Assembly (NCBI GenBank): GCA_025869365.1
Contig: JAOZVV010000156.1
Coordinates: forward strand, 62,001-126,000
Reading direction: 5' to 3'
DNA from: Pseudonocardia sp.
Lineage (GTDB): Bacteria > Actinomycetota > Actinomycetes > Mycobacteriales > Pseudonocardiaceae
Length of the DNA: 64,000 nt
Both the position numbers and the translations under genes were made by a program. The notes beneath the pieces are model-generated. The model worked only from the letters and a program-made list of their open reading frames with translations, searched no databases and was not told the origin of the DNA. Each line of letters opens with the position of its first letter. Position 1 is the first letter of the stretch. Shown here one piece after another: positions 50,154 to 64,000 of this stretch.

Positions 50154-50220
50154 GTCGTTATCCGAAACGCCATGGCTGCACTGGTGATGCCTTTGACCTG
50201 CACGTTAGCGGCTTTGTAGA

Positions 50221-51360
50221 TCATCCGGGCCGTCCCTGGGCCGTGGGAGACGTCGCAGAGTCGCTCGACCACGCCGCATCGACGGCCTTGCGGGTCCGAC
50301 TCTCCGACCCTGGGACGAGGTGGCCGTACACCCGAATGACCATCGTCGCGTTGTCGTGGCCGAGACGCTCGGCAACCGCGACGACCGATTCGCCGGCTGC
50401 GAGAAGTACGGACGCGTAGTGATGACGGAGCGAATGCGTGGTCGTGTCGGCCGGGAACGTCGATCCCTCGGCGGCGGCCAGCTTCTGTGCGGCCGACGAG
50501 AGCACAGTGCCGTAGTACCCGTGGGCATACGGCTGGCCGTTGTTGCCCGAGAAGATCGATCCGTCCTGCAGCGGCGGGAAACGAGCGATGTGCGCGGACA
50601 GCTCGTCAGCGACGACCTGCGGGAGCGGGATCGTTCGACGCGATCGGGGAGTCTTGGGCTCCACTCGCTCGCGTGTCCCCTCGGCCAGCTGGTGCTCGAC
50701 CCGGACGGAGCGGCCAAGGAAGCCCACGTCATGCACACGCAACGCCAGTAGCTCGCCGAGCCGGAGGCCAAGGCCAGCTTGCGCGATGACCATCGCCCGG
50801 TTGCGGGCGGGCACGGCGGCAGCAAGCTCCCGAACTTGCGCCACAGTCAGAGGCACCAGCCGGGGCTGCTCACTGCGCGGGAGCGATATTCGGACGACCG
50901 GGGACGATGCAATGACCCGGTCCAGCACTGCCGCGGCGAAGATGGCCTTGAGCACCGTGACAACGGCCGCGGTACTGGACGGGGCGAGCGACTTTGACAG
51001 CTCGCCAGCCCAGGCCTGCACATCGCTCGGTCGGACAGAGACGAGCCGCTGGCTTCCGAGCGCGGTGCCCTCGAGGTGCGTTCTGATCTGCGCGTCGACC
51101 CGGCGGCGGGTGGTGGCTCGGTACGGCCGCGCCGCGGCCCACTGTCGCGCGTACTCCACAACGGTGGTGCGATCCGTCGGGTCAACCCACGCGCCGCGAT
51201 GTACGGCGGATTCCAGTTCGACGAGCCGGCGCTGCGCAACGGCCTTGACGTCGAAGCTGCCGCCGTCCTTCTCGCGACCGTCAACGCTGTAGCGAACCTG
51301 CCAGCGCCGGCCTTTGCCCTTGCGGGCCGGATCCTTCCAGCGGTCGCGGATGTGGCCCAT
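50221..51360 (-). CDS. tyrosine recombinase / site-specific integrase
   Basis: IAQAGLGLRLGELLALRVHDVGF; TTHSLRHHYASVLLAAGESVVAVAERLGHDNATMVIRVYGHLVP. Confidence 0.97.
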   Translation of the reverse strand: MGHIRDRWKDPARKGKGRRWQVRYSVDGREKDGGSFDVKAVAQRRLVELESAVHRGAWVDPTDRTTVVEYARQWAAARPYRATTRRRVDAQIRTHLEGTALGSQRLVSVRPSDVQAWAGELSKSLAPSSTAAVVTVLKAIFAAAVLDRVIASSPVVRISLPRSEQPRLVPLTVAQVRELAAAVPARNRAMVIAQAGLGLRLGELLALRVHDVGFLGRSVRVEHQLAEGTRERVEPKTPRSRRTIPLPQVVADELSAHIARFPPLQDGSIFSGNNGQPYAHGYYGTVLSSAAQKLAAAEGSTFPADTTTHSLRHHYASVLLAAGESVVAVAERLGHDNATMVIRVYGHLVPGSESRTRKAVDAAWSSDSATSPTAQGRPG

Positions 51361-51363
51361 GGA

Positions 51364-51993
51364 TCAGGCCTCGACGCTGGGGAGTTCGACACCGAGCTCG
51401 CGGGCACGGTCGACCACGTACTGAGGCACGGGCGGCTGCTTGGCGCCTGCCTTACGGATGTCCTGCAGAACGTCTACCAGCGAGTCAAGGGAGCGTCGAT
51501 GTAGGTCGTCGGTCGCCTGCTGGTCACGCTCGGCGCTGCCACGGGCGACGCGGACGCGCTGGGTCAGGTTGCGGCAGGCCTCGGAGAACTCGGCTCCGTA
51601 GTTGATGATCTGCGCTGCGCTGTCGTAGCTCGCGTGCCCCGGTTCGTCGTCGAGCGTTGCGGCTCCGATTAGCCACAACAGAGCAGACCAGGCATCAGGC
51701 TCGACTCCGTCGGCAACGGGGACTGTCTCGACAGCCCGAGGATCGGCGATCAAGGCTGTAGGCGGGACGTCGAGCGCGACCGCCAACGCCATGAGGTCCC
51801 CAACGGAGAGCGACTCTCGGAGGTTCTTCTCGAGCTTGGCCACCGTGGAACGGCTCCAGCCTGGCCGTAGCTCAGCCATCCGGAACCCAAGGTCTACCTG
51901 GCTCATTCCGACGGCTTTACGCAGTTCTGCAACCCGCCGAGCGAGGAGTCGCGTGATGGCGTCGGCGCGTTCCGGTGTCTTGGGATGTTCCAC
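51364..51993 (-). CDS. XRE family HTH repressor-like protein
   Basis: RRVAELRKAVGMSQVDLGFRMAELRPGWSRSTVAKLEKNLRESLSVGDLMALAVALDVPPTALI; GTG start at 51993 (ORF open to 52041). Confidence 0.88.
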   Translation of the reverse strand: MEHPKTPERADAITRLLARRVAELRKAVGMSQVDLGFRMAELRPGWSRSTVAKLEKNLRESLSVGDLMALAVALDVPPTALIADPRAVETVPVADGVEPDAWSALLWLIGAATLDDEPGHASYDSAAQIINYGAEFSEACRNLTQRVRVARGSAERDQQATDDLHRRSLDSLVDVLQDIRKAGAKQPPVPQYVVDRARELGVELPSVEA

Positions 51994-52001
51994 AAGGGAA
52001 C
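51987..52001. promoter_or_regulatory. dyad GTTCC-ACAAG-GGAAC, candidate repressor operator
   Basis: 15-bp dyad at the XRE 5' end; matches GTTCY-N5-RGAAC. Confidence 0.6.
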
Positions 52002-52065
52002 ACGATAGTGCCGCGTTGACTTTCGGGCAACCCCGATGCACTCTGGGATCAAGCGGGACAAAAAT

Positions 52066-52080
52066 GTTCTGCGATAGAAC
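52066..52080. promoter_or_regulatory. dyad GTTCT-GCGAT-AGAAC, candidate repressor operator
   Basis: Second copy of GTTCY-N5-RGAAC, upstream of the excisionase ATG. Confidence 0.6.
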
Positions 52081-52094
52081 CGACCGGAGGGGTC

Positions 52095-52286
52095 ATGTCC
52101 GAGCTGGACTTGATGAAGCCCGAGCAGCTCGCGGCCGAGTGGCAGGTGTCGCCGAAGACGCTGGCCAACCAGCGGTCGCGCCGCGAGGGGCCGCCGTACC
52201 TGCGCGTGATGGGGTCGATCCGCTACTCGCGGCGCGCGGTTAATGAGTGGCTGACTGCCCAGCAGCAGACGTCGGGGGCTGCGTGA
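52095..52286 (+). CDS. excisionase / MerR-like HTH_17 DNA-binding protein
   Basis: MSELDLMKPEQLAAEWQVSPKTLANQRSRREGPPYLRVMGSIRYSRRAVNEWL. Confidence 0.9.
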   Translation: MSELDLMKPEQLAAEWQVSPKTLANQRSRREGPPYLRVMGSIRYSRRAVNEWLTAQQQTSGAA

Positions 52287-52287
52287 G

Positions 52288-52566
52288 ATGAGCCCAGAAA
52301 GAAACGGGCCGCCCTCCGAAAGACGACCCGCTCCGCGTTCCTACCAGCCTGCCGGCGACCACTCCGACGTCCGCGATTCTAGCAGCGTCCGGGCGGTCTA
52401 CCTGGCTCCTGACGGTCGGCGGACCTGGACAGCGGCGTTCGTGCAGAACTGCCCGCGCTGCTCCGCGGCGCACATCCACCGCCTGCCCGACGGCTACGGC
52501 TGGCGCCGCCCGGTGTGTGGCGTCAAGTACTGGCTCGCGGTCGACGAGCTGGCGGTGGCGGCGTGA
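52288..52566 (+). CDS. small CxxC-containing hypothetical protein
   Basis: NCPRCSAAHIHRLPDGYGWRRPVCG; tightly packed in the plus-strand operon. Confidence 0.65.
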   Translation: MSPERNGPPSERRPAPRSYQPAGDHSDVRDSSSVRAVYLAPDGRRTWTAAFVQNCPRCSAAHIHRLPDGYGWRRPVCGVKYWLAVDELAVAA

Positions 52567-52823
52567 TCACCGCAACGGGGATCCAGCCCGGGCCGCTGAC
52601 CGACCAGTTCGGCCGCTCACCCCTTCACGGCCTCCGCAACGTCCAGCAGGCCCGCGATAGGGCTTGGGCCGCCAACAGGCTCGCAGGCGTGCCCATGCTG
52701 CAGGTGCGGGCCATCGCCGCGGCCGACCCGGGACAGCTGCCGGACATCGGCGTCGCGGGGCCTACACAGTGGTCGGCGCTGATCGCCGAGGCTCGTCGGC
52801 TCGTGGCGATCGAGGCGACATGA
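52563..52823 (+). CDS. hypothetical protein
   Basis: GTG start overlaps the preceding stop; ends overlapping the primase ATG. Confidence 0.6.
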   Translation: MITATGIQPGPLTDQFGRSPLHGLRNVQQARDRAWAANRLAGVPMLQVRAIAAADPGQLPDIGVAGPTQWSALIAEARRLVAIEAT

Positions 52824-54907
52824 CCGGGGGAACAGACTTCTACCAGGTCATCCTGGGAGACCGACCCGGGCGCGTATGTGTCGCAGTCGGGTTCGGTCCC
52901 TACCGGAACGCGGACGGCAAGTACAAGCACCACACTTGGGAGGAAGACCGCCGCTTCGAATGGCCGGCTCAACGCGCCGAGCTCGAGGCCTACGCCGAAA
53001 GCATCGCCGCTGGGCCCGCGGCGGACTTCTACGTCTGCCCGGCAGTGCGTCACAGCGGGGCTCGAGGTCGGCGCAAGGGCGACGCCCTGCCGCCGCTCGT
53101 CGTGTGGGCGGACCTCGACGGCGAGCCGACCGACCCGGCGCTCTTCGCCCAGCTCATCGACCTCGGCGGGTTCGTCGTCGAGTCCGGCACACCCGGGCAC
53201 CGGCACGCCTACTGGCCGCTCACCCGACCGGTCGACCTCGGCACCCACAGCCGTCTCGGGCAGGCACTCGTCGCCCGCCTGGGTGCCGACCACAAATGGA
53301 GCGACGAAACGCTCCTGCGGCTGCCAGGGACGTACTCGTACAAGAGCGGCGAGAAGGTGCGCGTCGTCGCCTCCTCGTGGAACGGCCGCAGGGTCGACCC
53401 GGAAGACCTGGCCGAGCTACTCGGCGTGGACCTCACACAAGCCCCCGGGGACAGCGGCACAGAGCCGGCGGGCGAACGTCCCGCCGTCGTCGCCGAACTC
53501 GCACCCGCCACGCTTCCGGGCCTCGTGCGCCATGCCCTCGAGCACCCCGAGGTGACGGACAGGTCGGCGGCGTGCGCCCGGGTGATCGGAGCGTGCCGCG
53601 ACGCGCACCTGACTGCCGGACAGGCGTTGAGCCTGCTGGCGACATATCCGCCGGCGCGGCGCTACCGGGATGACCGACACATGGCGGCAGACGTCGCGCG
53701 GGTCTACGCCAAGTCCATCGCAGTCGCCGCCCGAACATCCGCCATGCCGACGGTCAACCAGTTCCTGGGCCTGCCCGACAGCACGGCCCCGACCCGCTCG
53801 GAGAGCACGATGAACGGCGCCGAGTCGACCTCTGCGGAGGGCGGCGAGTCAGCCCCGGCGCCTGCTGGGGTCGCAGAAACTCCGGAACGGGTGGAGCGGG
53901 CCCGGATCGTCACCGGCGGGTCGTTCATCTATGACGCTCCACAGACCGTGCCCTCGATCTGGGGGAGAGGCGACGAGGTGCTCTGGGCCGAGGGCGAGCC
54001 GCTCATGATCACCGGCCCGACGGGCGTCGGAAAGACGACACTGGGCGGCCAGCTCGTCGCAGGCCGGCTCGGTCTCCTCGACGAGACCCTCGGCTACCCA
54101 GTGAAGCCCGGTCGCCGCGTCCTCTACCTCGCGATGGACCGCCCTGCCCAGATCGCCCGGGCGCTGGGCAGGCTGCTGCGCCAGCATCCGCGCGAGGTGC
54201 TCGACGAGCGGCTCGTCGTGCTCAAGGGCCCGCCGCCAGCGGACCTCGGGCGCCATCCCTCGGTGCTGCTCGCCCTCGCTGACGAGCACGGCGCCGACAC
54301 GGTGGTCATCGACTCGATGAAGGATGCCGCGTCGAAACTCTCCGACGAGGAGACAGGCCAGGGCCTCAACACCGCGATGCAGTATTGCGTGGCTGCCGGG
54401 ATCGAGGTGATGGCCTACCACCACCAGCGCAAGGCGACGAACGGCGCTGGCGGTGGGAAGCCGACCTCGATCTCCGACGTCTACGGCAGTGCATGGCTCA
54501 CGGCGGGCTGTGGGTCGGTCGTTTTGCTCTGGGGCTCCGCCGGCGACCTCGTCGTCGAGCTCTCGCACCTCAAGCAGCCCGCCGACAAGATCGGGCCGGT
54601 CAAGCTCTTGCACGACCACGAGGCCGGTCGGTCGAGGCTCTTCGAGAATGTCGACCTGCTCGACCTGATTGCGTTACCGGCGACGGTGCGCGAGATCGCG
54701 ATGCAGCTCAATGACGGCACAGGCCCGGTGTCCGACGCGGTCATCGAACAGACCCGCCGGAAGCTCGAGACCGCCGTGCGCCAGGGCTTCGCGAGCAAGG
54801 TTCCCAGCAGGCCGGGCGCTCCCGCGGCTTACGTCAGGGCAGGCCTCAAGGGGGTCACGGATGGGGTCACGGCCCCTTCTGAGAGCGATTGGCCCACGGC
54901 CTCATGA
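52820..54907 (+). CDS. primase-helicase-like replication protein (RepB/prim-pol-like N-term, AAA_25/RepA-like C-term)
   Basis: VVWADLDGEPTDPALFAQLIDLGGFVVESGTPGHRHAYWPLTRPVDL ... LLRLPGTYSYKSG; MITGPTGVGKTTLGGQLVAG Walker A; RVLYLAMDRPAQIARALGRLLRQHP; AYHHQRKATNGAGGGKPTSISDVYGSAWLTAGCGSVVLLWG. Confidence 0.88.
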   Translation: MTGGTDFYQVILGDRPGRVCVAVGFGPYRNADGKYKHHTWEEDRRFEWPAQRAELEAYAESIAAGPAADFYVCPAVRHSGARGRRKGDALPPLVVWADLDGEPTDPALFAQLIDLGGFVVESGTPGHRHAYWPLTRPVDLGTHSRLGQALVARLGADHKWSDETLLRLPGTYSYKSGEKVRVVASSWNGRRVDPEDLAELLGVDLTQAPGDSGTEPAGERPAVVAELAPATLPGLVRHALEHPEVTDRSAACARVIGACRDAHLTAGQALSLLATYPPARRYRDDRHMAADVARVYAKSIAVAARTSAMPTVNQFLGLPDSTAPTRSESTMNGAESTSAEGGESAPAPAGVAETPERVERARIVTGGSFIYDAPQTVPSIWGRGDEVLWAEGEPLMITGPTGVGKTTLGGQLVAGRLGLLDETLGYPVKPGRRVLYLAMDRPAQIARALGRLLRQHPREVLDERLVVLKGPPPADLGRHPSVLLALADEHGADTVVIDSMKDAASKLSDEETGQGLNTAMQYCVAAGIEVMAYHHQRKATNGAGGGKPTSISDVYGSAWLTAGCGSVVLLWGSAGDLVVELSHLKQPADKIGPVKLLHDHEAGRSRLFENVDLLDLIALPATVREIAMQLNDGTGPVSDAVIEQTRRKLETAVRQGFASKVPSRPGAPAAYVRAGLKGVTDGVTAPSESDWPTAS

Positions 54908-55025
54908 AGGGGTCACGGGTGAACCTATTACTGCAGGTCACAAGGGTCACGGTTGGGGTCACGGGGGTCACGGTCCCAAGGGTCACGGTTGCCCCCCCTT
55001 CTAGAAGGGGGCAATCCGTGACCCC
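54851..55025. repeat. iteron-like array of GGGGTCACGG-type repeats plus palindrome; candidate replication origin
   Basis: GTCAC cores at 54854, 54866, 54912, 54937, 54946, 54958, 54967, 54982; palindrome CCCCCTTCTAGAAGGGGG at 54994-55011; inverted copy CCGTGACCCC at 55016-55025. Confidence 0.65.
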
Positions 55026-55115
55026 CCTTGCTGGAGTAAAGAAAGGACAGCCCAGATCGTCCAACGTCTGGACGTGCGATGGCGACCATGTCGAGCCGCC
55101 CTGTGGCGGGGACCG

Positions 55116-55436
55116 ATGACCCGCCGCACGCCGGTCAAGATCCGCCTGCCGCGCGACCCGCTCGCACCCGCAAGGCGAGCAGTCCGCGACGCGCTCCGCC
55201 TGGCCGCACGCGGACGACCCGCAGCGGTCGAGGCGCTCGCAGTGCGGTCGGACCTCGACCCTGCTGACGCCGCGGTCGTGCGACTGCACCTCATGGCCTT
55301 CGCCGAGCGGATCCGCAGGGCTCGAGCAGCAGGTGATGCGAGAGCGGCGGACGTACTGATCGCCGCGGTCTCCGACGAGTTCGCGGGCCGCATCGACCTG
55401 ACCCCCACAGGCCAAGGCGACGAGGAGCCGGCATGA
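55116..55436 (+). CDS. hypothetical helical protein
   Basis: MTRRTPVKIRLPRDPLAPARRAVRDALRLAARGRPAAVEALAVRSDLDPADAAVVRLHLMAFAERIRRARAAGDARAADVLIAAVSDEFAG; stop overlaps the next ATG. Confidence 0.65.
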   Translation: MTRRTPVKIRLPRDPLAPARRAVRDALRLAARGRPAAVEALAVRSDLDPADAAVVRLHLMAFAERIRRARAAGDARAADVLIAAVSDEFAGRIDLTPTGQGDEEPA

Positions 55437-55684
55437 CCAAGCCTGAGCCGACAGGCGACACAGAGGCCGGTGTGCTGGCCGTCGACTTCGACCGCCGGCA
55501 CACGGCCCTCGTCGCGGCACACGACCGGATCGTCGCATCGGCACTCGCCGGCGAGACCGTCACTCGTCGCTGGGCGAGGTGGGAGGAACGCCGCGACCGG
55601 TTGCAGGTCGACATGGCCGCGACGCGCTGCGGGCACGTCGGGGGCTTGTGCGGGTCCGTCACGAGACGCCCGGCGAGGGGGTAG
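55433..55684 (+). CDS. hypothetical protein
   Basis: Overlapping ATG with the previous stop; 83 aa. Confidence 0.5.
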   Translation: MTKPEPTGDTEAGVLAVDFDRRHTALVAAHDRIVASALAGETVTRRWARWEERRDRLQVDMAATRCGHVGGLCGSVTRRPARG

Positions 55685-55850
55685 GGGGGTCTGAATCATG
55701 AACGGCACAGAGGTCAGGCGACCCCGCCCGTCAACAAAATCTCCCTCCGGAACGGATTCTCCGGCGCCCTTTTCGATCGTTAAGAGCCGTTTCCGCAGGC
55801 CAGAAGCGTTGCAGCGGCAGCAGTGTCGCTGCAGGTCCATCCGTCACGTC

Positions 55851-55921
55851 GTGACGCGGCCGTGACGCCTTGTGACGCAAACCGAGCAGAACACCGTGAC
55901 GCGGCTGTGACGGCTGTGACG
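55851..55921. repeat. helically phased GTGACG repeat array upstream of a small ORF
   Basis: GTGACG at 55851, 55862, 55872, 55896, 55907, 55916. Confidence 0.55.
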
Positions 55922-55948
55922 GTCACCCGAGCAAAGAGGAGAACTGCC

Positions 55949-56215
55949 ATGCAGGTCATCAACACCGGCCATGCCGCCGCCGAGGACGCCCTTGTGGCCC
56001 TGGCCGGCCACGTCCCGGCCGACGTCGCGATCGGCCGCCCCCTGGTCGCCACACCCGGTGATGAGGGCTCGATCCACGTCCTGACCGCTACCACGAACTG
56101 GTGGGTCTATCCCGACCACGCCGACCGGCTCGCGGTGCTGGCGGACGGCCGCGGCGAGTTGACGGAGTTCCGCGGCGGCCGGGAGGTCTCCCGCACGATC
56201 GCCGTGATCGAGTAG
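55949..56215 (+). CDS. hypothetical small protein
   Basis: MQVINTGHAAAEDALVALAGHVPADVAIGRPLVATPGDEGSIHVLTATTNWWVYPDHADRLAVLADGRGELTEFRGGREVSRTIAVIE; RBS GAGGAGAA. Confidence 0.65.
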   Translation: MQVINTGHAAAEDALVALAGHVPADVAIGRPLVATPGDEGSIHVLTATTNWWVYPDHADRLAVLADGRGELTEFRGGREVSRTIAVIE

Positions 56216-56474
56216 GATTGACCGCAAGGCCGAGCGCCATCCGGTCCGGTGGAGTCCCGCCAGTGCCAGCCGTCCCAGCTCACGCCAGGCCCGTAAGGGC
56301 TCGCGGAGAGACCGGATCCGGCTCGACTAGCCAGACTCGCCCAGCCGTTGCGATCACCTGCTGAACCACCGTCGAGCGTCCGCTCAGCGTCCGCCCGCCT
56401 CCGTGCGGGCCAGCGCCGCCAGCGCCTCCGGGGTCGGCCCTCCCATTCCTTCTGCGTTCCCAACTGGAGCGATC

Positions 56475-57680
56475 ATGCGTACCAAGTCTGAACTCATCGA
56501 GGAGATGAAGGGCGAACTGGCTGCCGCCCGGGCCATCTCTGCCAAGGCCGATGAGACCGGCCGCGGTTACACCGACGACGAGGCCGCCACGATCACGCGG
56601 CACGTCGATATCGCGAAGAACCTCAAGGCCCGGATCGACCGGATCGACACCGACGCGGCGGTCAAGTCCGCGATCTCCGAGCTGGGCAACTCGATCGGGC
56701 TCGGCGGCCCTGCGGCTCAGGGGGACCAGCGTCCTGCGTGGGCTGTGAAGGGGCGTACTCGTTCCGAGTGGGTCAACAACACTGTCGCCCAGCTGGAGAA
56801 GGCCAGCGCCCGGTTCGACGCACACGGTGAGCCCAGCGGTGCCAAGGCTGTGATCACCGGCTCCGTGGGCGTGCCGTCGCCGATCTTCACCGACATCACC
56901 AAGCTCGCGCCGACCCCGACGCGACTGCTCGACCTCCTGGTCGACCGGGTGTCACTCGCCGGGACCAATACGTTCTCTTTCCTTCGGCAGACGGTGCGCA
57001 CGAACAACGCGGCCCCTGTCGCTGACAACGCCACAAAGCCCACGTCGGTGTACACGTTCGGCGAGGTCGAGGACCGGGTGCGGGTGGTCGCGCACCTGTC
57101 CGAGGCTATCCCCGAGCGGTTCCTGTCCGACCATGCCGGCCTCGTGGAGTTCCTCGAATCCGAGATGGAAGAAGGTCTGTACCGGGCGCTCGAGGCGCAG
57201 GTGCTCGCGGGATCCGGGTCCGGTGAGAATATGACCGGGATCCTCTCGACCAGCGGCATCATCACGCAGGCGTGGAGCGCCGATCTGCTGACCACGCTGC
57301 GGAAGGCTGCGACGGCGCTCGAGCTTGTCGGTGAGGTTCCCACCGCGTGGGCCATCCACCCCACCGACGTCGAGACTCTGGATCTACTGCAGGACAACGA
57401 GGCCAGGCACTATTTCGCCGGCCCGCAGCAGCAGCTCGCGCAGACCAGCCCGGTGTGGAGCTTGCCGATCGTGAAGAGCACCGCCGTCGCGGCCGGGACC
57501 GCGGTGCTGGCGGACTGGAACTATGTCCGACTCGTGGTCCGCGAGGACACCCGCTTCGACATCGACCGGGGCGGCGACCTGTTCGAGAAGAACCAGTTCA
57601 AGGCCCGGCTCGAGGGGCGGTTCGGTGTGGCGGTGCGCCGGCCGACGGCGTTCTGCAAGGTCACGACCGTCGCACCCTGA
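56475..57680 (+). CDS. phage major capsid protein, HK97 family
   Basis: N-terminal delta-domain-like helix; PTPTRLLDLLVDRVSLAGTNTFSFLRQTVRTNNAAPVADNATKPTSVYTFGEVEDRVRVVAHLSEAIPERFLSD ... LVVREDTRFDIDRGGDLFEKNQFKARLEGRFGVAVRRPTAFCKVTTVAP. Confidence 0.95.
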   Translation: MRTKSELIEEMKGELAAARAISAKADETGRGYTDDEAATITRHVDIAKNLKARIDRIDTDAAVKSAISELGNSIGLGGPAAQGDQRPAWAVKGRTRSEWVNNTVAQLEKASARFDAHGEPSGAKAVITGSVGVPSPIFTDITKLAPTPTRLLDLLVDRVSLAGTNTFSFLRQTVRTNNAAPVADNATKPTSVYTFGEVEDRVRVVAHLSEAIPERFLSDHAGLVEFLESEMEEGLYRALEAQVLAGSGSGENMTGILSTSGIITQAWSADLLTTLRKAATALELVGEVPTAWAIHPTDVETLDLLQDNEARHYFAGPQQQLAQTSPVWSLPIVKSTAVAAGTAVLADWNYVRLVVREDTRFDIDRGGDLFEKNQFKARLEGRFGVAVRRPTAFCKVTTVAP

Positions 57681-57687
57681 CGATCTT

Positions 57688-57818
57688 CCGGGCAGGGCGA
57701 GCGCGTCAAAGTCACCGCCGCCGTTCGACCTTCATCGAGTCGGCGGAGCCAAGGCGGCCGAGGCGCTGCCTCCTTAGATCAGCGCCGATGACACCGCCTG
57801 CGCGCTCGCCCTGCCCGG
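57688..57818 (+). ncRNA. candidate structured intercistronic RNA (multi-stem) between capsid and tail-fibre genes
   Basis: 18-bp perfect inverted repeat CCGGGCAGGGCGAGCGCG (57688-57705) / CGCGCTCGCCCTGCCCGG (57801-57818) enclosing further short stems. Confidence 0.45.
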
Positions 57819-57853
57819 TTTCCATCTCCCGAACCGCCTGATAGGAGCTCGGC

Positions 57854-58765
57854 ATGCCCACATCCCTCGACACCTACGCCCCGTTCGACTCGGGTCCTGG
57901 TTCCAACGTCACCGAGGCGACATGGCGCGACTTCATGCGCCACATGCTTGGCTCGGCTAGCGGAGTTCTGCGCGGCTTCCTGAACGAGTTCTCGGTCATC
58001 GGGGACAACTCAGGCATGAACGTCAAGGTCGACACCGGTGAGTGCTGGATGCGTGGGCACTACGGCAAGTCGACCGCGCAGAAGACCCTCTCGATCGCCA
58101 CCGCGCACGCCACCCTCGCCCGCAAGGACCGGGTGATCCTGCGCGCCGACTTCACCAACAACCGGGTCGAGGTCGACGTGCTCACCGGCACCGCCGCGTC
58201 GTCGCCGATCGTCCCGGCGGTCACCCAGTCGACGACGATCTGGGAGACGTCCCTCGCGATCGTGGACATCCCCGCCGCGGACACGGCGATCGGTTCCAGT
58301 CAGGTCACCGACGACCGGGTCTACACGACAGCGCAGGGCAAGTACCGGCGCAGCACGAACCAGTCGATCCCGACGGGCGTGTTCACTGCGGTCGTGCTGG
58401 ACACGGTGGTGTCGCGCAGCGGTGACCTGCAGATCAACCCGTCGACGGGTGTGGTGACGCTGCTTCGGTCGGGGCTGTGGAGTATCTCGGCGAGCATGCG
58501 GTTCGCCGACATCGGCGGCGGCAAAGCGGAGATGCTGGTGTCGGATCCGGCGAACGTGTCAGGGGGCACCACCAGCGACATCCTCGCCGCGCAGACGATG
58601 CCTTTTGTCACCGGCAACGAGATCCACGGGTCGTGCTCGTCGCACGAGAGGCTGCCGGCAGGGAAGCAGCTCGCCCTGTTCGCCTACCAGAACTCAGGCT
58701 CCGCGAAGAACGTCATCCCAGCCGCGAACGGCACCTCTCTGTCGCTGGTGTGGGTCGGCCCGTGA
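57854..58765 (+). CDS. phage tail fibre / minor tail-like protein
   Basis: MPTSLDTYAPFDSGPGSNVTEATWRDFMRHML...SGMNVKVDTGECWMRGHYGKS...DRVILRADFTNNRVEVDVLTG; TNF/C1q-like C-terminal FTAVVLDTVVSRSGDLQINPSTGVVTLLRSGLWSISASMRF. Confidence 0.8.
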   Translation: MPTSLDTYAPFDSGPGSNVTEATWRDFMRHMLGSASGVLRGFLNEFSVIGDNSGMNVKVDTGECWMRGHYGKSTAQKTLSIATAHATLARKDRVILRADFTNNRVEVDVLTGTAASSPIVPAVTQSTTIWETSLAIVDIPAADTAIGSSQVTDDRVYTTAQGKYRRSTNQSIPTGVFTAVVLDTVVSRSGDLQINPSTGVVTLLRSGLWSISASMRFADIGGGKAEMLVSDPANVSGGTTSDILAAQTMPFVTGNEIHGSCSSHERLPAGKQLALFAYQNSGSAKNVIPAANGTSLSLVWVGP

Positions 58766-58871
58766 TGGCGATGGCCGCAGATCAGGACGCCCACGACTCA
58801 CAGTGCGGTCCCGGCCGTCCAGGACCGCAGCTAGCTAGTCGTCCCACCATCACGCACGGAACGGCTCGGCC

Positions 58872-59108
58872 ATGTCTCGTTACCGTCACCGCCGGCCCAA
58901 CCAGCACCCCGCAACCGCCGCCCGGGTTGCCATTCGTCGGCGCCGAGGCGGCAGCCCCGGCCGCGGTCCTCGCCACACCCGCGGGCGGCGCTACCACGCC
59001 CGATCTGGACGTCATGGCGCAGTGCGGGGCAGGGAACCGAGTCCGGCGGAGCTGGTTCGCGCGTGGGTGGTGGTGGCTGACCGTCCGTTGGTGAGCTCGA
59101 CGTCCTAG
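58872..59108 (+). CDS. small basic hypothetical protein (uncertain)
   Basis: MSRYRHRRPNQHPATAARVAIRRRRGG...EPSPAELVRAWVVVADRPLVSSTS; a competing frame 58477..59094 is also open. Confidence 0.25.
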   Translation: MSRYRHRRPNQHPATAARVAIRRRRGGSPGRGPRHTRGRRYHARSGRHGAVRGREPSPAELVRAWVVVADRPLVSSTS

Positions 59109-60007
59109 TGCTCGTCCGTCGTCGGCCCACAGTCGTTCTCGCCGGCGAGCACATCGTGGATCCGCTCGTCCGCCAGCTTCTCAAGCGGCCCCGGCCCCAC
59201 GGGGGGCACCGGGTCGATCGTCGAGATGGGCGGCGCGACCAACTCGACCTGCCGCTCGACGGCGGTCGGCGCCGGCGCGGGATCGCCCGATTCCCAGCCC
59301 CATCCGTCCGTGAGGCCGTCCCTCGCGACGCCGTACACCGCGACCAGGAGACCCAGGACGCCGACTACGGCCATCATCCCAGCGATGCGCGTGCTCTTCG
59401 CGTTGTCACTCCCGAGCTTCTCAACCGTCGTGTCGAGCTTCTCGACCCTCGTTTCCAGCTTCTCCACCGTCGTGTCGAACTTCTCGACCGCTCCGACCAG
59501 CTTCGTGATCGACCGCTCGAGGTCGGCCGGAGCAGTCGGGCTGGCTAGGCCTTCGAGGATCAGTTCTGCATCGGCGTCGAGTTGGGCACGCTCGGCGACG
59601 GGGAGACTGTCGAGGTCGGCTGCGACAGACTCCTCGAACTCCAGTCGTTCGGTATCCTGCTGCGCCGCCCGTCGTCGGGCTTGCTCCGCAGCCTTCATGG
59701 CAGCTTCGAGCGCTGTCCGATATCGGTCCGACCCGTCGCTGGGCCGCGACTCCAGCACGTCAGTCGCGGCCGCGATTGCGGCTTGCAGTGACGGCCGATC
59801 AACCGTCCGCAGGCGGCTGATCGAGTCGTTGATCGCTGCGACGCTCGACTTCATGGACTCGGCCAGCATGTTGTTGATGCTGGGCATCACCAGGCGGACA
59901 GAGTCCAGCATCGCTCCCTCTGATGCGGCCACGCTCCGCCTGAACGCCGCCAGCATCTCGGGCGAGAGGGGAGTGCGGTCGGGATCTTCAGGGGAGCTGA
60001 CGGTCAC
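59105..60007 (-). CDS. coiled-coil protein with one transmembrane helix
   Basis: Heptads VEKFDTTVEKLETRVEKLDTTVEKL then IAGMMAVVGVLGLLVAVYGVA; GTG 60007 preferred (ORF open to 60130). Confidence 0.7.
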   Translation of the reverse strand: MTVSSPEDPDRTPLSPEMLAAFRRSVAASEGAMLDSVRLVMPSINNMLAESMKSSVAAINDSISRLRTVDRPSLQAAIAAATDVLESRPSDGSDRYRTALEAAMKAAEQARRRAAQQDTERLEFEESVAADLDSLPVAERAQLDADAELILEGLASPTAPADLERSITKLVGAVEKFDTTVEKLETRVEKLDTTVEKLGSDNAKSTRIAGMMAVVGVLGLLVAVYGVARDGLTDGWGWESGDPAPAPTAVERQVELVAPPISTIDPVPPVGPGPLEKLADERIHDVLAGENDCGPTTDEH

Positions 60008-60437
60008 CCGATTGAGTGTAGGAAGTAGCCGGAGTGTCCGACGTGATCGGGTCACCCCGGACGCGATCACGAACCGCTCCGCCACGTCGACCGGATCCGT
60101 GATCACCCGGTCGCCCGGTATCCGGGGCATAGCGGGGTGCGCCGGCTCGTCGGGCGGCTCCGGCGCCTCACACCCGTGCGAGGTCGAAGGTGGTCGCCGC
60201 TACTCGCGGCCCGCACGGCACCCCGCGTGTTTTTCTCCCGGCTCCACGCCCGCCTCGAGGACACAGGCCCATTCACCGTCGAGGATGTTGCCGAGCGGGC
60301 GCGACGACGGGTGAACCAAGGAGCACTGGGAACGAGTCCGAGCCCCGCTTCACCCGACGGGCTGGCCCGCGAGCCGGTAACGCTGGGCGTCCGGGCGGCG
60401 ACTGTGGATCACACACCCTGTCGACACCGGAGTCCTG

Positions 60438-61013
60438 ATGCGCCGCGCCCTGCCCACCGTTTTTGCCCTCGCCGCGCTGGCTCTCGCCGGGTGCTCCAAC
60501 ACCGCGCCCCCGGCGCCCGCCGCGGCACCAATCACCGTCGCGCCGACGACACAGGCGCCCGCCGGGTTCGGGGCCAGCACGCCGACCGAACGCGGGGCCC
60601 TCCCCAAGGCACTCGGGCAGCACGCGGGGCTGACAGACGACTCGACCGGGGCGGTCATCGCGGACTTCGCGGTGACGGCGATCGCGCCGGCGAGCTGCAA
60701 CGCGGGAGCGTCGAAGCCGCAGAACGGGCGATTCCTCGCGCTGACGATCGAGGCGACCACGAAGTCCGACCCGAACAACGTGCTGGCCAACATGCAGTCG
60801 TTCGGTTCGCCGTGGGAGTTCGTCGCGGCGGACGGCCGCTCCACGCAGGCGGACAACTCCGCGGCGGCCATGTGTCACTACGACGCCCCAGTGCTCAAGC
60901 CGAACCGCAGCTACACGAGCACGGTCGTCGTCGACGTGCCGGCCGGTACTGCGGGCGTGCTGGTGTTCGACCCGGCACGCAACGGCGGTTGGGAGTGGTC
61001 GATCGCGGCCTGA
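60438..61013 (+). CDS. secreted lipoprotein (DUF4352-like fold possible)
   Basis: MRRALPTVFALAALALAGCSNTAP lipobox; NGRFLALTIEATTKSDPNN...WEFVAADGRSTQ. Confidence 0.75.
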   Translation: MRRALPTVFALAALALAGCSNTAPPAPAAAPITVAPTTQAPAGFGASTPTERGALPKALGQHAGLTDDSTGAVIADFAVTAIAPASCNAGASKPQNGRFLALTIEATTKSDPNNVLANMQSFGSPWEFVAADGRSTQADNSAAAMCHYDAPVLKPNRSYTSTVVVDVPAGTAGVLVFDPARNGGWEWSIAA

Positions 61014-61091
61014 CCGAGGAACGACGAAATCGTCTGCTGGTTCGTCTCCCCTCGAGCGGCTGAACGACCCCAACGGCCGTCTGACAGAAAG

Positions 61092-61280
61092 TCAGGTGTC
61101 GAGGTAGTGGACGTCGAGCTCGAACGAGCGAAGCTCGACGTCCTGCATGATCGCGATCAGATCGCGGGCCATCGCCTCAACCTCGCCCCGGTAGCGGGCC
61201 TGCGTCACGTGGCCGATCTCCGGGACGCTGACGTGCCAAAACTCACCGTCGCGCGATACGTCTACTCGGTAGCACATCAC
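61092..61280 (-). CDS. HicB-like small protein
   Basis: MCYRVDVSRDGEFWHVSVPEIGHVTQARYRGEVEAMARDLIAIM. Confidence 0.65.
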   Translation of the reverse strand: MMCYRVDVSRDGEFWHVSVPEIGHVTQARYRGEVEAMARDLIAIMQDVELRSFELDVHYLDT

Positions 61281-61450
61281 GGTCGTTTCCTCTCTGCCTC
61301 GCCGCGGCGGAAGACACCGACGAGGAAGTCCACCTGCTCAGGGGTGAGCGGCTTCTTCGGCGCCGCGCGGATCGCCTCGAACCTGTCCTCGCCAAGGATT
61401 GCCCGGGCCTGGGCCACGCTCATCAGCTCGGGCTCTTCGTCCTTCGTCAT
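61277..61450 (-). CDS. small AICE/phage-type protein
   Basis: MTKDEEPELMSVAQARAILGEDRFEAIRAAPKKPLTPEQVDFLVGVFRRGEAERKRP; GGGAGG upstream of ATG 61450; overlaps the HicB-like start. Confidence 0.65.
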   Translation of the reverse strand: MTKDEEPELMSVAQARAILGEDRFEAIRAAPKKPLTPEQVDFLVGVFRRGEAERKRP

Positions 61451-61522
61451 CGATCCTCCCCATTGAACAATTCGTAGACCCGACGGCCGGAGTCGACGCA
61501 GCGGAGGCACGGCCGCCAGGCC

Positions 61523-61813
61523 TTGCCTGAAGGCCCCCGCGAGGGGCGGCAAGAGGTCGTCGCCTCGCTGCGGGAGATCGGGATGTCCGTGCGAGCGATT
61601 GTCGCTGCGACCGGTCTCGACCGGAAGACGATCCGGCGGGACCTGCAGGTGGGGGAAAGGGGACCACGTGACGGCGACGGGGCCGCCCGGGATCTCGCTC
61701 TCACCGAGGCGCGGACGGTGACCGATAGCGGCGTCCGGGTCCCGCTGGACGAGATGACTCAGTTTGAGTCATCTGCGGCGGAGAAGGCCGCCCGAGATCT
61801 CGCCATCGCGTGA
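61523..61813 (+). pseudogene. remnant of an HTH DNA-binding protein (ParB-like/phage type)
   Basis: EVVASLREIGMSVRAIVAATGLDRKTIRRDLQVGER HTH; lacks a normal N-terminus and is embedded between duplicated minus-strand modules. Confidence 0.5.
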
Positions 61814-61833
61814 GACCTTGGCGGTGTAGCGCA

Positions 61834-62001
61834 TCACGATCGTTTCTGCGCGGGTGGGCCCGGCCTGGCGCTGCGGATGACAACCTCGAGAGACGCAAGC
61901 ACGGCAGGCGAGAACGGCGGCGCTTCGGCGGCACACTTTTCCGCGGCAGCGCACGCCTCGGGTCCGAGCCGAGCTCGGCGACGCTCAGTTTCGCTGGTCA
62001 T
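61834..62001 (-). CDS. small AICE/phage-type protein (paralogue of 61277..61450 module)
   Basis: MTSETERRRARLGPEACAAAEKCAAEAPPFSPAVLASLEVVIRSARPGPPAQKRS read from the reverse strand; followed by a truncated HicB-like start MRYTAKVSRDGEI. Confidence 0.5.
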   Translation of the reverse strand: MTSETERRRARLGPEACAAAEKCAAEAPPFSPAVLASLEVVIRSARPGPPAQKRS

Positions 62002-62216
62002 CGGTCCTCCCCGTTGAACAATTCGTAGATCCTACGGCCGAGGCGGACCCTACGGCCGGAGCCGACGCAGCGGCGGCACGGCCGCCAGGCCTTACCCGAA
62101 GGTGACCGTCGCTTTCCCGAGCCGTGACAGCGCCGGCAGGCCATGTACGGCCACCAGGCGCACGCGCCGACGTAGCCGACCACCAGGACTAGCGCTAGCA
62201 CGAGCAGGGTCCCCAC
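61998..62216 (-). CDS. small membrane protein with DnaJ-like CxxCxGxG zinc-binding repeats
   Basis: MGTLLVLALVLVVGYVGACAWWPYMACRRCHGSGKRRSPSGKAWRPCRRCVGSGRRVRLGRRIYELFNGEDR. Confidence 0.65.
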   Translation of the reverse strand: MGTLLVLALVLVVGYVGACAWWPYMACRRCHGSGKRRSPSGKAWRPCRRCVGSGRRVRLGRRIYELFNGEDR

Positions 62217-62246
62217 GATGCCCTCCCGGGGCGAGAACGATGGTTG

Positions 62247-62334
62247 AGCGGCAGGGCCCGCTAGGCACTAGGTCGCAGGTCAGCGGCCTGTGTCGCCGCT
62301 AGCACCGCTGCTAGGTCTAGCGGGCCCTGCCGCT
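62247..62334. repeat. 18-bp perfect inverted repeat at the 3' end of the FtsK-like gene
   Basis: AGCGGCAGGGCCCGCTAG (62247-62264) / CTAGCGGGCCCTGCCGCT (62317-62334). Confidence 0.85.
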
Positions 62335-63991
62335 AGGCGTTGATCTCGCGGCGGTGTCGCTCGAGCGCCTCGGTCACGTCGGCCCGGGAGATCCCGCGCC
62401 GGTTCTTCGGCGTGCCGTCGGGCAGCTTCGCCCACACCTGGCCGGGGGTGATCCCGAGCGGGCGCAGCGCTGCGGTGAGCTCGTCGGGGGTCATCCGGGC
62501 GTAGAGCGCCGGCTTGTGCGCGGCGAGCAGCTCGACGACGGTCTCGCGCCACACCCGCTCGTCGGTGATGGTCGCGAAGATGACGGCCAGGTCCTCGAGG
62601 AGCGACGCCTCCGGCGTCAGCGGGGACGCCTCGCCCAGCGCGTGCCCGGTGACTGTCCCGGCTCGCTCACGAGCTACCCGGGCCCGCTCGGCGACCTTCT
62701 CCGCCTCGAGGGTGTCGACGTAGTAGGTCCGGACGACGGCCGGCTCGTCGCCGACCCCGACCAGGTAGCCGATGCCCTTGTCCCGCGGGGTGAACGTCGT
62801 CGCCCTGATCCCGTTCTTATACGAGCTGGTACCCAAGATCATGTCGTTCGCGGTCTGGTCCATCACGCGGAGGCAGAACCGCACCCCGACGTTCGTCGAC
62901 ACCCCGGTCGGCAGGGACTTCGAGTCAGGGCGCTGCGTGGCGAACACCGCGATCACCGCCAGCGCCCTCCCGCGCTTAATGATGGCCTCGGCGAGCTTCC
63001 CGGCCTCGTCGCCGTATTCGCCGTGGGAGAACACCTCCTGGGCCTCGTCGACGACCAGCACGAGTGGGCGGAGCGCCTTGTTCGACCGGGCGAGTTCCGG
63101 GGTCACCTTCGAGTCCGGCACCACCGACCGCGGCAGCTTCCCGAGGACCGCGGCGCGCTTCTCCAGCTCGGCGTACACCTCGCGCATCGACGCCAGCGTC
63201 TCGGCGATCTTGTCGTCGGACACCCCGGAGACGTAGCGGTGCGCGCACCTCTCCAGCGCGGAGAGGTCCCCGCTGCCTTTGTGCTCGTGGATGCGCAGCT
63301 CGGCGTACGGATCCAGGGCCGCGGCGAGGGCGAGGACCCGGACCGCGGCGGTCTTCCCGCCGCCGGGCAACGACCCGACGAGCGCGTTGGTCTCGGCGAG
63401 CCCGATCATCACCGGGCGCTGGCGCTGGTCGGTGCCGAACGGGAACGCCCCGCCGAGCAGGTCGACTGTGCCCGTCTTGGCCAGCGGCCACGCCTTCGGC
63501 TTGACCTGGTTGAGCGGCTGGTCCCCGACCCACAGGATCAGCCGGCCCGCGTGCTGCTCCAGCGACGGCTCCGGCCACACCGCCGAGAGCGGGCGGCGCA
63601 GCCCGGACGCGAGCCGGTCCCGGCGCTCGGCGACATCAGCCACCGTCACCCCGAACGGCAAGTCGATGTCCGCCCGCCACCCGGGGCCGTCGCGGGTGAT
63701 GGGTGCGACGTAGGCGATCGAGGCGCCCTTCGCAGTCATCGCCGCGATGCCCATCGCCTGCAGCGCCCGGGTCACCACCTCCGAGGTGAGGCGGGGTGGC
63801 GCGGACGCCCGCACCGTGGCGACGTCGGTGACGCGGCGGTCCTGCGGGGTGCCGAGCTTGCCGAACACCACGACCAGCACGGCGACGTAGAGGCCCTGCA
63901 CCCAGTTCGGCAGCCACATCGCCACCACCGTCACCGCCACCAGGGCGAGCACACCCAGGGCGACGAGCGCCCCGCGGCGCTTGACCCGCAC
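62333..63991 (-). CDS. FtsK/SpoIIIE-like DNA translocase (AICE Tra-like); may start beyond window
   Basis: Two N-terminal TM segments; ALVGSLPGGGKTAAVRVLALAAALDPYAELRIHEHKGSGDLSAL; LVLVVDEAQEVFSHGEYGDEAGKLAEAIIKRGRALAVIAVFATQRPDSKSLP. Confidence 0.9.
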   Translation of the reverse strand: MRVKRRGALVALGVLALVAVTVVAMWLPNWVQGLYVAVLVVVFGKLGTPQDRRVTDVATVRASAPPRLTSEVVTRALQAMGIAAMTAKGASIAYVAPITRDGPGWRADIDLPFGVTVADVAERRDRLASGLRRPLSAVWPEPSLEQHAGRLILWVGDQPLNQVKPKAWPLAKTGTVDLLGGAFPFGTDQRQRPVMIGLAETNALVGSLPGGGKTAAVRVLALAAALDPYAELRIHEHKGSGDLSALERCAHRYVSGVSDDKIAETLASMREVYAELEKRAAVLGKLPRSVVPDSKVTPELARSNKALRPLVLVVDEAQEVFSHGEYGDEAGKLAEAIIKRGRALAVIAVFATQRPDSKSLPTGVSTNVGVRFCLRVMDQTANDMILGTSSYKNGIRATTFTPRDKGIGYLVGVGDEPAVVRTYYVDTLEAEKVAERARVARERAGTVTGHALGEASPLTPEASLLEDLAVIFATITDERVWRETVVELLAAHKPALYARMTPDELTAALRPLGITPGQVWAKLPDGTPKNRRGISRADVTEALERHRREINA

Positions 63992-64000
63992 GTTGCGCTG

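Follow-up and report, generated by a model that had tools for sequence, protein, structure and literature searches.

The window analysed here, a 64-kb stretch of a 158.6-kb Pseudonocardia contig whose numbering is used throughout, carries towards and beyond its right end an integrated element of 15,649 bp (~15.6 kb) that combines a phage capsid gene with a conjugation-type DNA translocase of the FtsK family. We consider it rather probable that this is a conjugative element akin to the actinomycete integrative and conjugative elements (AICEs), whose capsid and minor tail protein also let it exploit a helper phage. The sequence evidence behind this proposal comprises the boundaries and single insertion of the element, its gene content, the apparent TraB identity of the translocase, a site resembling the cis-acting locus of transfer (clt), and a capsid lineage that is conserved and seems to be kept under purifying selection.

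A single complete insertion

The element is complete and represents one insertion. Its left boundary (attL, 50155-50172) is an 18-bp core, TCGTTATCCGAAACGCCA, and a second exact copy in direct orientation (attR) lies at 65804-65821, 1.8 kb past the end of the window. An earlier note on this DNA, made from the window, had proposed an extension to the right attachment site and had named a full set of phage genes to the right of 64000 as the finding that would make the element a complete prophage. The contig does continue to the second repeat, and the remaining 1.8 kb carries no terminase, portal or protease gene, so that the absence of these three, reported earlier for the visible part, holds for the entire element (hidden Markov model (HMM) scans). 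A complete prophage cut by the window edge is therefore excluded, since the element ends at 65821 without terminase, portal or tail module.

The empty site was found in a genome of the same genus (G328), with the flanks joined without a gap at 89% identity and one intact copy of the core. Because the flanks are joined there, the capsid and FtsK blocks constitute one insertion of 15,649 bp. The element is inserted between the genes for a D-2-hydroxyacid dehydrogenase and a DoxX-like protein (the latter by our own reading of the sequence) and not in a tRNA gene, and ARAGORN found no tRNA in the 64-kb window; to the right of the element host genes resume, among them the ilv and leu metabolic genes. 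Within the element, the integrase and repressor genes occupy the left part on the minus strand, followed in the middle, on the plus strand, by genes for an excisionase-like protein, small open reading frames (ORFs), a primase/helicase, an 88-aa protein, the HK97-type capsid and the minor tail protein. Converging on these, the right part carries on the minus strand two small ORFs as well as the genes for a DUF2637 membrane protein, for the translocase of FtsK type and for a membrane protein of 72 aa.

A TraB-type translocase followed by a clt-like array

The translocase gene (62333-64369, minus strand, running past the window end) encodes 678 aa and was recognized by profile and homologue matches (phrog_1358, 1.6e-32; NCBIfam TraB, 4.9e-8; solved FtsK motors, 6e-6), while Pfam PF01580, the model used for AICE Tra proteins, stayed under threshold. 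The protein shares 51-53% identity with translocases of capsid-free, integrase-linked elements of the same family. By tblastn it matched 52 plasmid records, those of Pseudonocardia and Streptomyces foremost, and none of 50,697 phage records; a phage moron was accordingly rejected. Distant FtsK-like genes (34-37%) were seen 16-17 kb from portal genes in four genomes of the same genus (G204:C13, G222:C22, G182:C13 and G266:C4), and because of these a related pump may sit in full prophages too.

Directly at the FtsK stop codon begins a clt-like repeat array (62189-62336, minus strand) in which eight CTAG motifs accompany a perfect inverted repeat of 18 nt (62247-62264 / 62317-62334). Eight of the 25 CTAG copies in the whole window crowd into these 148 bp, and control windows of 200 bp over positions 1-62,000 hold at most two each. 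The array is conserved behind all 29 homologues with an identity of 45% or more; the 200 bp that follow the gene contain 5-10 copies in them, against an expectation of 0.1-0.4. Arrays of this kind were located, apart from the one at 62189-62336, at L025, L032-L054, L069-L074 and L148-L150, and three IMG/VR contigs also carry them with 6-8 copies. A dense CTAG array after a TraB-type FtsK gene thus looks like a general clt signature of the elements of this family, and the clt expected of an AICE appears to be present here in the form of such a signature, array and inverted repeat together.

A 72-aa membrane protein with CxxC motifs (61998-62216, minus strand) is the partner of FtsK in other elements as well; its counterparts in L069 (76%), in L056 (58%) and in the capsid-free L073 (56%) each lie directly downstream of FtsK. 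A degraded partial copy of its gene at 61446-61533 aligns with 61997-62102 at 81-91% identity over 57-59 nt.

Given the matches to plasmids and not to phages, the capsid-free relatives at 51-53% identity and a CTAG array that sits where the mapped clt of the Streptomyces plasmid pWTY27 does, with repeats unlike those of pWTY27, we conclude that the FtsK protein is a putative conjugation pump of the AICE and plasmid TraB type, with its own cis site. The predicted conjugative capacity is well supported by sequence and is the best backed of the activities proposed for the element.

A capsid lineage of integrative elements

The major capsid protein (56475-57680, plus strand, 401 aa) is of the HK97 type (PF05065, 1.9e-30; TIGR01554) and includes an N-terminal scaffold-like (delta) region; its profile aligns over full-length HK97 gp5 (3qpr), scaffold region included, at 8.5e-42. 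An encapsulin was considered and rejected, as the top models were a phage capsid and HK97 gp5 and encapsulin family 3 reached just 1.6e-5. Genomes of Pseudonocardiaceae hold many further PF05065 matches, of ~310-350 aa and with no portal within 15 kb, which may represent host genes, encapsulin-like or otherwise. Just upstream of the capsid, an 88-aa protein (55949-56215, plus strand) was identified by alignment with related elements, five of which carry it in the same place at 24-48% identity. Its AlphaFold model is confident (pLDDT 87.5) and found no structural relatives at E <= 0.001.

A tree of 28 capsids places those of portal-less integrative elements in one clade (100/100), and all portal-bearing phage and prophage capsids in the tree fall outside it. 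The members of this clade come from Pseudonocardia, Amycolatopsis, Arthrobacter, Streptomyces, a Rhodococcus plasmid, pWTY27 and one IMG/VR contig. The capsid of G204 lies outside on a long branch, and placement is unsure for the long-branch rows of the L069 capsid and, among the translocases, the FtsK of L079 and L096. Ratios of nonsynonymous to synonymous substitution (dN/dS) were 0.07-0.16 in three Arthrobacter-type capsid pairs from this clade, a comparison that leaves out the capsid of the Pseudonocardia element itself, whose relatives are too distant; because of these ratios we regard the capsid as maintained by purifying selection in those Arthrobacter-type pairs. The same clade also occurs in capsid-only elements, in which a transfer module was not detected. 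Among the matches listed, identity to phage capsids reaches about 33% at most, for which reason no specific helper phage can be named.

The 303-aa product of the next gene (57854-58765, plus strand) is a minor tail protein of tail tip or fibre-like character, recognized by tblastn to phage minor tail proteins and by phrog_5339 (5.4e-29). Its best phage matches are the minor tail proteins of the Streptomyces phages Bowden and Hank144 (34%), even though PHROGs labels the family 'head'.

Recurrence of the capsid and TraB pairing

A capsid and a TraB gene lie together inside a single att pair in four further elements, which measure 10.8-15.8 kb. L056, from a metagenome-assembled genome of Pseudonocardiaceae, measures 10.8 kb between 20-bp repeats; a search for the same gene order in relatives, as suggested earlier, found the order of the Pseudonocardia element in it, within one att pair. 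The second, L079 of Streptomyces marokkonensis (15.8 kb, 43-bp repeat), adds a tape measure and an HNH gene, and the third, L082 of Streptomyces sp. H27-H1 (15.0 kb, 44-bp repeat), a small terminase (TerS). The fourth, in G204 of the same genus, Pseudonocardia (14.7 kb, 23-bp repeat), has a capsid of a different lineage together with a protease and an HNH gene; its FtsK block is present in G222 as well, at equal identity. L096 is a candidate for a fifth chromosomal pairing, which is tentative because an assembly gap (Ns) interrupts its capsid.

The partial sets of assembly genes therefore differ from element to element, consisting of TerS, of tape measure and HNH, of protease and HNH, or of a minor tail protein, and in the searches made no portal or large terminase (TerL) was found in any of the capsid and TraB elements. 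In the TraB tree L082 groups with pWTY27 at 100/100, and the capsid-adjacent TraB proteins are spread over several lineages. Within the family, a capsid was found at three of 27 TraB loci, read up to 10 kb to either side (co-occurrence counts across the family are lower bounds), so that the pairing is a minority form. The combination, which the earlier note had called unusual, is accordingly uncommon, yet it has a precedent in the pWTY27 capsid reported in 2012.

Two other sequences may be mentioned here. L158, an 11.8-kb IMG/VR contig, carries an integrase end, a DUF2637-like protein and a TraB-type FtsK, with HNH and large-terminase-like genes on the opposite strand, and likewise mixes conjugation with packaging genes. 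L090 (NZ_CP096036.1) is a circular 13.6-kb plasmid of Rhodococcus pyridinivorans whose annotation lists no transfer genes; it looks like the near-dimer of an element with integrase and capsid.

Relation to known systems

The closest parallel is pWTY27 of Streptomyces sp. Y27 (NC_013667.2), a conjugative plasmid with an FtsK-like tra gene and a clt, for which transfer has been shown, with movement between strains of S. lividans, and whose clt was mapped experimentally to 16 bp inside tra plus the next 159 bp (PMC3583192). The authors found its phage head capsid 'unexpected' and proposed gene transfer between plasmid and phage (PMC3583192), and Ghinet et al. (2011) listed the plasmid as an AICE in excised form (PMC3218068). 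Like the Pseudonocardia element, it is small (14.3 kb) and has an FtsK-like tra with clt directly after it, a DUF2637 protein and a recombinase, and its HK97 capsid falls in the same clade (36% to the Pseudonocardia capsid). In contrast, its TraB belongs to another lineage (HMM comparison of the Pseudonocardia TraB group with pWTY27 TraB gave a weak local match only), its clt motif is TGACACC and not CTAG, and it is a circular plasmid with a primase/polymerase, a GntR regulator and no annotated minor tail gene. In the literature, we found no later work on the pWTY27 capsid and no description of capsid-plus-TraB elements as a group, most subscription journals lying outside the search.

AICEs are defined by a tyrosine or serine integrase near an att site, a Tra protein with an FtsK/SpoIIIE domain (PF01580), a replication protein of the RepSA, RepAM (DUF3631) or Prim-pol type, a clt and the transfer of double-stranded DNA (PMC3218068). 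The Pseudonocardia element shares with AICEs such as pSAM2 the integrase, situated 49 bp from attL, the FtsK/TraB translocase, 51-53% identical to those of the capsid-free elements described above, the clt-like site and proteins of the DUF2637 or spread type. It differs in a primase/helicase that lies outside RepSA, RepAM and Prim-pol, in its position between two protein genes instead of at a tRNA, and in its capsid and tail genes. The integrase and clt-like features agree, the PF01580 match stays under threshold and the replication type differs; we therefore take the element to work like an AICE without classing it as a canonical one.

Among phage satellites, the Mycobacterium regions that combine integrase and capsid, phiRv1 and phiRv2 among them, have been described as candidate phage-inducible chromosomal islands (PICIs) (PMC10654092). 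They too are small integrated elements with integrase, excisionase, primase/helicase, capsid and an incomplete phage gene set; the passages on them mention no conjugation module, and the Pseudonocardia element, for its part, is without a protease. Capsid-forming PICIs and the Streptomyces satellites MiniFlayer and MulchRoom likewise encode their own capsid, but also portal, terminase and other packaging genes (PMC10690885), which the Pseudonocardia element lacks while possessing a conjugation module. Of the genes that mark capsid-forming PICIs (capsid, protease, portal, connectors, terminase and HNH) it has the capsid alone, and it is not one of them.

Proposed function and alternative explanations

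If the element is a conjugative one that also exploits a helper phage, it would excise by means of its integrase and excisionase and replicate with its primase/helicase. The TraB-type pump would act on the clt-like array that follows its gene and move double-stranded DNA between mycelia, as in Streptomyces plasmids and AICEs; the element thus probably conjugates. The capsid, from a lineage specific to such elements, would serve packaging: together with the minor tail protein it would divert an infecting or resident phage, whose terminase, portal, protease and tail could pack the DNA of the element into particles whose shell and tip are those of the element. The satellite role is favoured because genes that shape particles or redirect packaging, in the absence of portal and TerL, are typical satellite cargo. 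The earlier note had anticipated a satellite that brings its own capsid and tail tip, borrows the packaging machinery and tails of a helper, and has or once had a conjugative route. A single element with its own HK97 capsid and 303-aa minor tail protein, free of packaging and portal genes and equipped with a conjugation module, was indeed found, and the route appears present rather than lost, with TraB intact and the clt-like array directly after it; the satellite cycle is the part that we infer.

Several observations weigh against this proposal. The replication gene falls outside the three standard types of AICEs, as the primase/helicase has AAA_25 only and PF09250 and PF12307 gave no match at E <= 0.05. 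The 24 of 27 TraB loci of the family that are capsid-free indicate that the capsid is dispensable for conjugation. No packaging site was identified in the element. Finally, no helper prophage was found in the genome, neither PF04860 portal nor PF03354 terminase matching anywhere in the assembly (~90% complete), although a helper could be external.

Next after the satellite role, we rank the possibility, itself rather unlikely, that the capsid of an AICE-like element is a device of phage interference that poisons or re-sizes phage particles, or acts as a decoy, and thereby protects host and element. Satellites are known to re-shape the capsids of their helpers (PMC10945586), and a capsid that is under purifying selection without portal or terminase, and that occurs from the same clade in elements with no detected transfer module, would suit such a device. 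The minor tail protein here, the tape measure of L079 and the TerS of L082 are, however, better suited to particle building or packaging.

It is improbable that the element is a degenerating chimera, an AICE that gained functionless phage genes by recombination. The phage genes are few and vary between elements, and the duplicate of the 72-aa gene at 61446-61533 is degraded, as decay would have it, but the ORFs are intact, the dN/dS values of the capsid pairs are low, and the deep capsid clade spans Streptomyces, Arthrobacter and Pseudonocardiaceae. The 88-aa partner is also conserved, and the pairing is repeated with several TraB lineages.

FtsK/HerA-type ATPases package DNA in some viruses, and with this precedent the FtsK-type protein, which converges on the capsid block in an element without terminase, could itself be the packaging motor of a capsid-bearing satellite. 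We hold this to be very unlikely, since capsid-free elements carry this gene and array too and are where most homologues reside; the homologues are found in plasmids and not in phages, the protein has N-terminal membrane segments, the clt-like array accompanies both capsid-bearing and capsid-free kinds, and there is no portal. Two unrelated adjacent elements, a capsid element and an AICE, which the differing relatives of the blocks (phage-like versus plasmid-like) might suggest and which the earlier note had allowed for, are refuted by the single att pair, by the one empty site that accounts for all 15.65 kb and by the synteny conserved within one att pair in L056.

Other genes of the element

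The tyrosine integrase (50221-51360, minus strand, 379 aa; PF00589, 3.4e-15; phrog_1, 1.6e-53) is 52% identical to that of L056 and is followed by an XRE/Cro-C1 repressor of 225 aa (51364-52041, minus strand; PF01381, 9.9e-7). On the plus strand lie an excisionase-like HTH_17 protein of 63 aa (52095-52286; PF12728, 5.9e-8; phrog_66), two small ORFs of 92 and 86 aa whose starts and stops overlap and which match no family (52288-52823), the 695-aa primase/helicase (52820-54907; AAA_25, 2.3e-14; phrog_6012 DNA helicase, 2.1e-89; phrog_10514 primase) and two small ORFs of 120 and 83 aa with no convincing family match (55074-55684). Of the earlier gene calls, tyrosine integrase, XRE repressor, excisionase, primase/helicase and HK97 capsid are backed by HMM matches.

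Beyond the minor tail gene, a coiled-coil protein of 341 aa with a hydrophobic C-terminal segment (59105-60130, minus strand) was called from its ORF and codon bias, with weak PHROG matches only. A 191-aa lipoprotein (60438-61013, plus strand), whose lipobox match is slightly under the cut-off, has a 27% homologue near the end of the Arthrobacter capsid element L077. A HicB-like protein of 62 aa (phrog_8245, 3.7e-12) and a 91-aa ORF occupy 61092-61552 on the minus strand. The DUF2637 membrane protein (64366-65355; PF10935, 3.9e-10) and two ORFs of 82-83 aa (65025-65524) lie past the window. PADLOC indicated no convincing defence cargo, and no RNA genes were found at gathering thresholds.

Implications

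Since the same pairing of capsid and TraB recurs in other actinobacteria, the element looks like a representative of a real, little-studied hybrid kind. We further suggest, tentatively, that there could be a class of two-route elements that use TraB/clt mating as well as particles made with their own capsid, and that it arose repeatedly in actinobacteria, drawing on different lineages of TraB and, for the most part, on a single dedicated lineage of capsids. The capsid of pWTY27, left unexplained in 2012, becomes part of a recurrent pattern, and a large group of Pseudonocardiaceae elements gains a clear clt-like sequence signature. It is usual to regard conjugative elements and phage satellites as separate lifestyles. 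If our proposal is true, one 15-kb element would both mate between neighbouring hyphae and travel far in particles, and the boundary between integrative and conjugative elements and satellites in actinobacteria would become testable by simple mating and lysate assays.

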